A DNA stretch of 36,404 nt, from NCBI GenBank assembly GCA_030605195.1, contig JAUWBB010000005.1, forward strand, positions 1-36,404. The letters are read 5' to 3'. Numbering within the stretch: position 1 is the first letter of the stretch; the number at the start of each line of letters is the position of its first letter. This document shows, piece by piece, positions 1,341 through 34,670 of this stretch. The translations under genes and the position numbers were made by a program. The stretch is from Bacteroidota bacterium. GTDB taxonomy: Bacteria > Bacteroidota > Bacteroidia > Bacteroidales > VadinHA17. The notes under the pieces were generated by a model. The model had not been told where the DNA came from and ran no database searches. It saw only the letters and a list, made by a program, of their open reading frames with translations.

Positions 1341-1410
1341 TGAATATCCAATATCGAATATCCAATATCGAATATCCAAATATCCAATATCCAAGTATCC
1401 AATATCGAAC
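1341..1410. repeat. Short tandem repeat, unit about 14 bp (GAATATCCAATATC), degenerating 3'
   Basis: Direct reading: GAATATCCAATATC x2, then GAATATCCAAATATCC, AATATCCAAGTATCC, AATATCGAACG. Confidence 0.9.
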
Positions 1411-13428: not shown

Positions 13429-13905
13429 CTTCGGGAGAAAATAATTAATTCAGGTTGTTTAATTAGAGTCTGTCTATTAATTCAGAACTTATGAAGTGAA
13501 TGAGAAAATTCCAAAATACTCACGAAGTGATGCTTATTGCAAAATAACAAATCTCAACCGATCCGCCAGCGGAGAGCTCATGAACACCTTTGAAATATTT
13601 TTCTTGTGAATAAATAAATTACAATTTTCTAAATCTCAATGTTTCAAACAGTTTTGAATTTTGTGCCGATACCCGATACGTTAAATTATTCCTGAGGAGC
13701 CAGGAAGGAAACAAAGCCAGATATCAAATGTAGAATTTAGAATGTTCAATGATGAATGTAGAATAAAAATAAACAAATTTTACATTTTTTACGATATTAA
13801 CCCGCAACCACGGTGAAATATGCTCCCGCATCACATTTTACCACGTAGGATAAATCCATAAATCCAACGGGGTGAACGTGGCAGGCCTGTAACTAGCAAC
13901 TTAAA

Positions 13906-17458: not shown

Positions 17459-17517
17459 TTTCTATCTTGCTTTATGCCTGCAAATTTACTTAATATAACC
17501 TACATTAATATATATAG

Positions 17518-17569
17518 TAATTTATTCTCCGCTTCCCGATATCCATCTGGTCTAAGTTCAATGCTTATT
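17518..17569 (-). repeat. Copy of a dispersed GCGGAGAATAAATTA element upstream of mnmG
   Basis: TAATTTATTCTCCGC...GGTCtaAGTTCAAtgcTTATTG is shared with 22451-22495. A related core lies at 34608-34637 on the opposite strand. Confidence 0.65.
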
Positions 17570-17587
17570 GCTTGCTAACTTTTAATT

Positions 17588-17684
17588 TCATTATATTTTG
17601 ATTTTTTAAGTTGGCAATCTTCAGTTGGCCCGAACGTATCTTTCGGTACTGGTGGGCATCCGGCAATCTGAATACTGGGTTATT
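17588..17684 (-). repeat. Long copy of dispersed 3'-end repeat (ybeY stop)
   Basis: Minus strand: TAAATAACCCAGTATTCAGATTGCCGG...CTGAAGATTGCCAACTTAAAAAATCAAAATATAATGAAAT. Homologous to 25004-25051. Confidence 0.7.
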
Positions 17685-18112
17685 TATACTTGCATTTTAT
17701 CAAACATGTACAAATACTCATCTTCTTTCTCCCTCATTTTTGTTTGCTCTTCATTCTTTTTATCTCCATATCCAATCATATGCAGAATCCCATGTATTAT
17801 TACTCTTAGAATTTCCCTATCAACCTGCTCATTGAATTTTAATGCATTTTCTCTAACGCGTTCAACACTTAGGTATATATCCCCTGAAATTTTCTTTTGC
17901 TGGTTGTATTCAAAAGTAATTACGTCGGTGAGGTATTTTCTGGAAAGGTATATTTTGTTTAGCTCAAGTAGTTCCTTGTCTTTAGCAATAATAATATTCA
18001 GCTCTCCTAATTCTTTCCCTTCATTTTCAACTACTTTCTTGATCCACTGTCTTATCTTTTGCTTTTTTCCGATATCAAAATTTATTCCTTCTTTATGGAA
18101 AAAAATACTCAA
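17684..18112 (-). CDS. ybeY: Endoribonuclease YbeY (rRNA maturation)
   Basis: 142 aa; YLTDVITFEYN, SGDIYLSVERVRENA, VIIHGILHMIGYGDKKNEEQTKMREKEDEYL. Confidence 0.93.
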   Translation of the reverse strand: MSIFFHKEGINFDIGKKQKIRQWIKKVVENEGKELGELNIIIAKDKELLELNKIYLSRKYLTDVITFEYNQQKKISGDIYLSVERVRENALKFNEQVDREILRVIIHGILHMIGYGDKKNEEQTKMREKEDEYLYMFDKMQV

Positions 18113-24825: not shown

Positions 24826-25003
24826 CTTAAAAATATTTATTACACCTAAACAGATCCTGTTCACAAACTCCAAAGCTACCATGAAAGCCAAAATCTCAAA
24901 TATCAAAACCCAAAATATAAATAAATCACAACCGTTTTAATTAAAAAATAATTAAACGTAACTATTCAGTGTCTTAAGTTTGTAATGCCTAAAATTGCTA
25001 ATC

Positions 25004-25051
25004 TCATTATACTTTGCATTTTTAAGTCGGCAATCTGAAGACCGGACTATT
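25004..25051 (-). repeat. Short copy of dispersed 3'-end repeat (CDF transporter stop)
   Basis: Minus strand: TAAATAGTCCGGTCTTCAGATTGCCGACTTAAAAATGCAAAGTATAATGAG. Homologous to 17588-17684. Confidence 0.7.
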
Positions 25052-25929
25052 TAATGTATGCTTTTAGTGTCTATATGAATTGTCGCCAAAATATTCATTT
25101 CTTTTTTAATTTCCCTAAATAAAAAATCTGTGATTTCTTTTGCTTCCTCCAATTTCATTTCCGCGGCTAGCACAATATGAAAAGTCATTTCACTATGTTG
25201 CCCATATTGATGAATATGAAAATGGTGCAACCTAAGTTCGGAAGTATCAATTTTTTCCGCTATGCCTTTGATTTTTTGAATTAACCTATCATCTGGTTTT
25301 TCGCCTAATAACGAGCTGCTTGTCTCCCTTATTATACTAAATGCAGCATAAAATAACATGAATGAAACAAAAATACCCAATAACCCGTCAACCCACCATA
25401 ATTTATTCCCCAGGATTATTCTAATCAGGATTATTATGGATGAAAACGCATCGGTACGATGATGCCACGCATCTGCTTTAAGCGCTTTAGAACCGATCTT
25501 TTTTGACGCCCAATAGGCGTATTGTGCCATTCCTTCTTTAATAATGATAGAAATTACCATTACAACAATTGCAAAGTTGTCAAATTCGACTGCCCGGTGC
25601 TCCCTAATTCTTAAAATGGATTCGCTTAAGAAATTAAACCCTATCAGTCCTAAAATTATACCCACAACCAAAGATGAAATCAACTCTGCCCGACCGTGTC
25701 CAAATGGATGTTCTTTATCGGGCGGTTTTGAGGCTAGCTTAAATCCTATTAAAATAATTACGGATGAAAAAGAATCAGAAATGGTATGCCATGCATCTGC
25801 AACTATGGCAATCGATCCGGTAACTATCCCTGCCCAATACTTCAATCCAAAAAGAATAACATTAAAAACAATGGATAACCATCCTTCAATTAATCCAAGT
25901 CTGTATGGGTGCTTCTTGTTTTTTGTCAT
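25051..25929 (-). CDS. Cation diffusion facilitator family transporter
   Basis: 292 aa; SIAIVADAWHTISDSFSSVIILIG, HPFGHGRAELISSL, KADAWHHRTDAFSSI, C-terminal cytoplasmic domain. Confidence 0.95.
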   Translation of the reverse strand: MTKNKKHPYRLGLIEGWLSIVFNVILFGLKYWAGIVTGSIAIVADAWHTISDSFSSVIILIGFKLASKPPDKEHPFGHGRAELISSLVVGIILGLIGFNFLSESILRIREHRAVEFDNFAIVVMVISIIIKEGMAQYAYWASKKIGSKALKADAWHHRTDAFSSIIILIRIILGNKLWWVDGLLGIFVSFMLFYAAFSIIRETSSSLLGEKPDDRLIQKIKGIAEKIDTSELRLHHFHIHQYGQHSEMTFHIVLAAEMKLEEAKEITDFLFREIKKEMNILATIHIDTKSIH

Positions 25930-28741: not shown

Positions 28742-29123
28742 ACTAATTTGTTTAAGAGAATATTACTAAACTTTTTGCCTTATAAATATATAAAAAATTA
28801 TATTAGAAATATGATATTACTCCGTAGAACTTGCCTTTATTAGAAAACTTTTTATTTTGATTATTAACTTGAATAATTCATTTGGATTTCCAATCAAGTT
28901 GGGAATGAAAGACTTATGTTACTTTTATATCCTTCCCGCGAACGGCTTTAGCACTCATGAGCGTAACGAATAACGCAGGAACCGAAGACCGAAGGGATGA
29001 GCTCAGCGAAGCTAATCCATTCATTTTAAATAGTTTATCAATGTTTATGAACTAAGCCCCGATAGCTATCGTGTCGATCTCACTTAAATTATGAATGCTT
29101 AAAATTTAAAATGCCTCCAATTC

Positions 29124-33959: not shown

Positions 33960-34042
33960 ATTGTTGGCCCATCATCAATATTTTAGCAATTTAACAACTT
34001 AGTTCCGCCTGGGCGGGGCGATCTCATGAGCGAAACAAGTAA

Positions 34043-34417: not shown

Positions 34418-34670
34418 ATTCTATTTTTAGCTCTTAAAATTAAGAAATAAATTTAATAAACTTTTATCAGAATTAAATATAGAACATAGCTTCGCGAATT
34501 TATTAAAAAAATATATTATTGAGAGAGATGTGTTAAATTTGTTTGATTGTAGCACAAGGCTGTCCAAAGGACTCCTACGGAGATGCTAAGGCTGATCCCG
34601 AAACCCGATAACTATCGGGAGGCGGAGAGTAAATTCCGATACATATTAAAACCGATGTAAGGGAAAAAAA

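Follow-up and report, generated by a model that had tools for sequence, protein, structure and literature searches.

Repeats downstream of ybeY and a CDF transporter gene in a Bacteroidota genome are very probably remnants of a mobile-element family

Two repeat copies at gene ends

The stretch of DNA that was analyzed, in the following called the window, comprises 36,404 nucleotides of a Bacteroidota bacterium (assembly GCA_030605195.1, contig JAUWBB010000005.1) and contains ybeY and a gene for a CDF transporter, both of which end on the minus strand. The initial annotation had described a dispersed repeat that begins exactly at the stop codons of the two genes and had placed its copies at 17588-17684 and 25004-25051. 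Both minus-strand stretches indeed read as described, and copies were found throughout the genome. However, the homology to other copies already begins 4-5 nt before the stop codons, at 17691 in the ybeY copy (AAGTA-TAA) and at 25057 in the CDF copy (ACAT-TAA), and the repeats extend further than proposed, to about 17512 and 24958, respectively. The annotated features of the window are:

17512..17691, minus strand: ybeY-side copy, left-truncated type A with a degenerate right end (matches to the tail, the palindrome and the type-A right part)
17684..17686, minus strand: TAA stop of ybeY, contributed by the element (AAGTATAAATA; alignment with other copies and relatives)
17628..17656, minus strand: degenerate nested copy of the palindrome CCCGCCCGTACCGAACGGTACGTTCGGGCGGG, which accounts for most of the about 50 additional nt of the ybeY copy (tail comparison)
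24958..25057, minus strand: CDF-side copy, left-truncated type B with a short-form tail and a B right end (tail match 93-95%, right-end match 97%)
24958..24969, minus strand: inverted repeat CTGAATAGTTAC at the right terminus of the type-B CDF copy (inverted-repeat comparison)
25051..25053, minus strand: TAA stop of the CDF gene, contributed by the element (ACATTAAATAG; comparison with relatives)
34480..34642, plus strand: third copy, with type-A ends (TAGAACATAGCTTCGC on the left, GTAAATTCCGATAC on the right) and an unrelated interior

The repeat is a multicopy sequence far beyond chance. The 16-mer TTCAGATTGCCGACTT has four matches with up to 3 mismatches in the window, compared to 0.35 expected from shuffles. 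The genome-wide search that the initial annotation had proposed, performed with a 131-nt stretch of the ybeY copy against the 3.04-Mb MAG (393 contigs), yielded at least 62 local matches, with a best E value outside of the window of 1e-16. At least about 30 tail copies are present in this MAG; all copy numbers are lower bounds among the matches listed. The repeat was found in 9 of 60 genomes searched, namely, the own genome and eight related genomes, which represent several genera. A scan of the window against Rfam at gathering thresholds gave no match.

The ybeY copy has a long-form tail and is composed of matches to the tail (17661-17686 and 17583-17629), the palindrome (17628-17656) and the type-A right part (17535-17574). 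Where it ends on the right was estimated by comparing the degenerate sequence AAATTACTATAT with AAATTCCGATAC. Neither window copy has kept its left half. For the CDF copy a left end was looked for and not found; only the right end is left (24958-24969), and the copy is therefore classified as a remnant. At both loci the host frame continues into the interior of the element, where it ends at the first in-frame stop. The own IVP gene of the element stops at a TAG, which lies 4 nt past the TAA of ybeY and in another frame. The CDF protein ends with ...HIDTKSIH*, compared to ...HIDTKSKY* or ...HIDTESKY* in its closest relatives. In the relatives, no element follows ybeY or CDF; this pre-insertion sequence stems from other genera only, as neither of the two genes was found in the sole congener, G001, which is 74% complete. 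Since ybeY and CDF share one contig in five relatives (G003, G005, G010, G014 and G019), an assembly chimera is unlikely here. A third left-truncated copy, in G001 (L251), is located 1 nt behind the stop codon of its host gene.

Architecture and ends of the complete element

A complete copy consists of a left arm, a 120-aa IVP gene (or a deleted or non-coding substitute) and a tail (TAAATAGCCCAGTCTTCAGATTGCCGACT...TATAATGA). In the full copy on contig C33 of G000, read in sense direction, the left region AAGAACATAGCTTCGCAAATTGATTAAAAAAACCC...AATAGTCGGCAGTCCACAATCGGCAGTCCAC...AACAATTATAACACA is followed by the 120-aa gene (MATGFRNLTVYKKAF...NHMIQNPEKYK), the tail (TAAATAGCCCAGTCTTCAGATTGCCGACTGCCGACTG...GACTTAAAAATGCAAAGTATAATGAAATTAGCC) and the right end. 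This gene contains one in-frame stop, and a copy in G022 (L316) is intact. The encoded protein belongs to the 23S rRNA intervening-sequence protein/four-helix-bundle family (PF05635, E 6.8e-32; TIGR02436, E 1.4e-29), and it has a weak match to Avd/bAvd, an accessory protein of retroelements.

Among the 113 tail matches listed, there are many copies in which the IVP gene is internally deleted, missing, or replaced by an AT-rich non-coding block, which ends with ...GACTTTATGGACTGACAT. In many copies of G009, positions 1-37 are joined to about 276-338, which represents an internal deletion of the gene. The junction TAAATAG is preceded by the IVP gene of the element or by AT-rich cargo in most tail copies that keep it. 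The short-form tail recurs in several copies and species among these matches, and it is best read as a probable deletion between direct repeats. It had been left open whether the CDF copy is a deletion product or the ybeY copy an expansion; the former is favored, as the long form with TTCAGATTGCCGACTGCCGACTGAAGATTGCCGACTT is commoner and the short form joins the near-direct repeats.

Several further observations concern the interior of the element. The palindrome CCCGCCCGTACCGAACGGTACGTTCGGGCGGG is nested at the same points of the left or right arm in many copies of G000 (L069, L074, L075 and others), and thus seems to be a second, smaller repeat within the element. On the antisense strand, the consensus core of the type-A tail resembles a Bacteroidota promoter (TTG, 17 nt, TATACTTTGC), e.g., at 24993-25036 on the plus strand of the window, and antisense transcription through the element might be possible. 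AT-rich slipped repeats of the window (1357-1394, 13609-13665 and 24890-24926) resemble the non-coding cargo of some copies. The copy at 34480-34642 (plus strand) lies upstream of a possible gene start, and the sequence between type-A ends seems to vary. Isolated matches to the palindromic middle of the type-A right end, the rest of which is absent, occur at 29048-29082 and 34014-34029 (both plus strand).

Two kinds of outer ends can be distinguished, and the left end of intact elements is either AAGAACATAG or GTAACTAATCAG. Type A has AAGAACATAGYTTCRC as left and AAATTCCGATAC as right outer end. Comparison of type-A copies with empty orthologous sites in congeners revealed plain insertion without a target duplication, and the DNA immediately to the right of the type-A right end fits RWWWAAWTA. 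The outer ends of type B, GTAACTAATCAG on the left and CTGAATAGTTAC on the right, are terminal inverted repeats, and 9-12 of 12 positions of the left end match in the copies with duplications. Ten type-B copies are flanked by perfect 8-bp target duplications (8/8), one more by a duplication with 7/8 matches. The B inverted repeat was found in all nine genomes searched, with 33-101 copies in five of them (at least 36 in G000, 33 in G009, 55 in G013, 48 in G028 and 101 in G033), compared to 0-2 for the reversed control. In four contigs of G033 (C72, C262, C328 and C347), pairs of type-B inverted repeats are only about 100 bp apart, which suggests a very short B derivative with a high copy number.

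Ends with GTAA and 8-bp duplications are typical of IS66. In G009, a transposase of the IS66 family (PF03050) is enclosed by GTAACTAATCAG ends and an 8-bp duplication (GTTTTATT). The number of IS66 transposases is 0-2 per genome, and in some genomes with B copies none was seen; B ends were also looked for at the IS66 transposase of G000 and could not be shown there. A search around 76 IVP genes of other genomes found no generic inverted repeat with an 8-bp duplication, and the IS66-type ends therefore seem to be a peculiarity of this bacterial family. Most simply, type B would be a MITE-like element that is mobilized by an IS66-family transposase. Like a MITE with IS66-type ends, type B is short and transposase-less, it has inverted repeats starting with GTAA and 8-bp duplications, it shares its ends with an autonomous IS66-family element in G009, and derivatives with internal deletions have been amplified. 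In contrast to such a MITE, however, the complementary heptad-repeat arms of the full-length form enclose an intact IVP gene, and the same cargo is also found between the unrelated type-A ends, which make no duplication. Both MITE ends of the IS66 type and an IVP gene are thus present in this family. An earlier description of IVP genes in MITEs was not found in the open-access literature, a coverage that excludes most subscription journals. Variable left and constant right edges had initially pointed to a TPRT-like retroelement. This was rejected as the main reading, since the left ends of complete copies are defined (AAGAACATAG or GTAACTAATCAG) and type-B copies are flanked by 8-bp duplications.

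Gene ends and the history of the window copies

The initial annotation had suggested a repeat family at gene 3' ends and a tabulation of the distances to stop codons. This tabulation revealed a clear enrichment for intact type-A left ends, 18 of 31 of which are located at most 15 nt from a facing upstream stop codon (8.3% expected, p 2e-12). Likewise, 29 of 45 type-A right ends lie 1-25 nt before a facing start codon (11% expected, p 3e-17). Type B has a weaker association, with 4 of 14 left ends near a stop and 6 of 22 right ends near a start. For these counts, orthologous duplicates and the window were removed, simple ORF calls were used, and uniform intergenic placement was the null model; the enrichment pools target choice with selection against promoter damage. 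The suggestion is therefore partly right: it applies to intact type-A elements, but not to the two window junctions, which are probably not element ends.

Most simply, both window junctions represent left-truncation scars, i.e., deletions, and we are confident that the repeats behind ybeY and CDF belong to a dispersed mobile-element family and are what is left of two of its members after loss of their left parts. The whole explanation, to which we assign a high probability, would comprise two separate insertions of small transposase-less elements, each bearing an IVP gene between complementary arms. Type-B copies would be moved in trans, now or formerly, by an IS66-family transposase. The elements would have inserted just downstream of ybeY and CDF, and in each case a later deletion would have eliminated the left part of the element and, along with it, the spacer or the final codons of the host gene. 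The survivors would be those deletions that left a near-native C-terminus and a quick stop, such that the TAAATA of the element now serves as the host stop. As the left end and one copy of the target duplication are gone at both sites, the two insertions are not individually provable. It also counts against remnants that two copies of different types, located on one contig, would by coincidence have been truncated at almost identical positions of the element. The family illustrates how ordinary genes can come to obtain their stop codons and final residues from element debris.

It might instead be argued that the family recognizes stop codons for insertion and that the copies at ybeY and CDF are not truncated but represent short, complete members. 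At both window sites the host frames end only a few nt from the start of the homology, and the left-truncated copy in G001 likewise follows its host stop closely. However, in most tail copies starting at TAAATAG this sequence is preceded by the IVP gene or by AT-rich cargo, intact elements start with AAGAACATAG or GTAACTAATCAG, and ybeY and the IVP gene use stops of the same sequence in different reading frames. Among the copies examined, none was an intact insertion with target signatures and a start at TAAATAG, and stop-codon targeting is hardly credible. The position at gene ends could also reflect function, if the repeat were an exapted 3'-UTR or terminator-like module that is kept there for mRNA processing or stability. 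Type-A elements do lie between a stop and the next start, they contain strong hairpins, and they are mostly oriented with the flanking genes (26 versus 4). This co-orientation is, however, not above that of ordinary genes with their neighbors, which behave likewise in the same loci. In addition, the sites in congeners are empty, the copies are degenerate and internally deleted, and type-B copies are spread more loosely, which makes such a module quite improbable.

The palindromic, intergenic nature of the repeats and the lack of a target duplication for type A are shared with REP/REPIN-RAYT systems, in which the palindromes would be mobilized by a RAYT (Y1) transposase. Of the genomes searched, G000 and G001 have the highest numbers of Y1 matches, 11 each. 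But most relatives without the repeat have Y1 genes as well (1-6 matches each), only one of 30 Y1 loci (L407) has a tail copy, and none of the 30 Y1 genes has the repeat on both sides, so that a repeat-flanked Y1 gene, as expected for such systems, was not found among these loci. Type B moreover has true inverted repeats and 8-bp duplications. Y1/RAYT was thus rejected as mobilizer of type A for lack of a consistent link, and we consider it very improbable that the family consists of REP/REPIN palindromes.

The IVP cassette

The arms AGTCGGCAGTCC and GACTGCCGACT are complementary, and the predicted fold closes around the open reading frame. Across 66 IVP loci, upstream and downstream arms are better complements of one another than of the arms of other loci, and the own arms surpassed all 24 mismatched arms in 13 cases, compared to 2.6 expected. 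Intervening sequences (IVS) of 23S rRNA genes can contain an S23p/IVP ORF, e.g., in Coxiella burnetii (PMC4990558). As in these IVS, a protein of the same family (PF05635/TIGR02436) is encoded here inside complementary arms that are able to close a long stem. In contrast, the cassette described here is multicopy and enclosed by transposon-like ends. Its copies were found between protein-coding genes and not inside a 23S rRNA gene. The cassette, as predicted from its layout, is therefore IVS-like but not an rRNA IVS, and it represents an IVS layout outside of rRNA.

IVP genes are sense-oriented in a ratio of 46:3, but ordinary genes are co-oriented as well (83%). At 60 of 68 loci (L412-L491), the IVP gene has a co-directional upstream neighbor, compared to 229 of 334 for ordinary genes (p 0.0006), a control that comprises genes of this bacterial family only. 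The sense orientation was dropped as a striking feature, as the control leaves only the upstream co-directional excess. According to a more far-reaching idea, the IVP cassettes would be a second kind of intervening sequence with an mRNA context, which spread among Bacteroidota genera into operon junctions beside gene ends in sense direction, via an RNA intermediate (in view of the weak match to Avd/bAvd) or a duplication-free recombinase (type A) and by hitch-hiking on IS66 ends (type B). We regard this as unlikely, albeit conceivable.

The IVP gene has 92% DNA identity between G022 and G000, whereas the amino-acid identities of the host proteins between G000 and G013, which belongs to the genus of G022, are only 46% (YbeY) and 52% (CDF), which points to horizontal movement. 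Free-standing IVP genes are common in Bacteroidota. Here, they are the cargo of transposon-like elements with defined ends. Either target duplications or empty sites were found for these elements, as were derivatives with deletions and a candidate for the transposase, which makes the mobility of the IVP genes testable. IVP genes with the same heptad arms are also present in other Bacteroidales MAGs and on one contig labeled Planctomycetes. The IVP gene on the latter (L419) has a similar arm and encodes a protein that is 77% identical to that of the element, which might be due to horizontal transfer or to misbinning.
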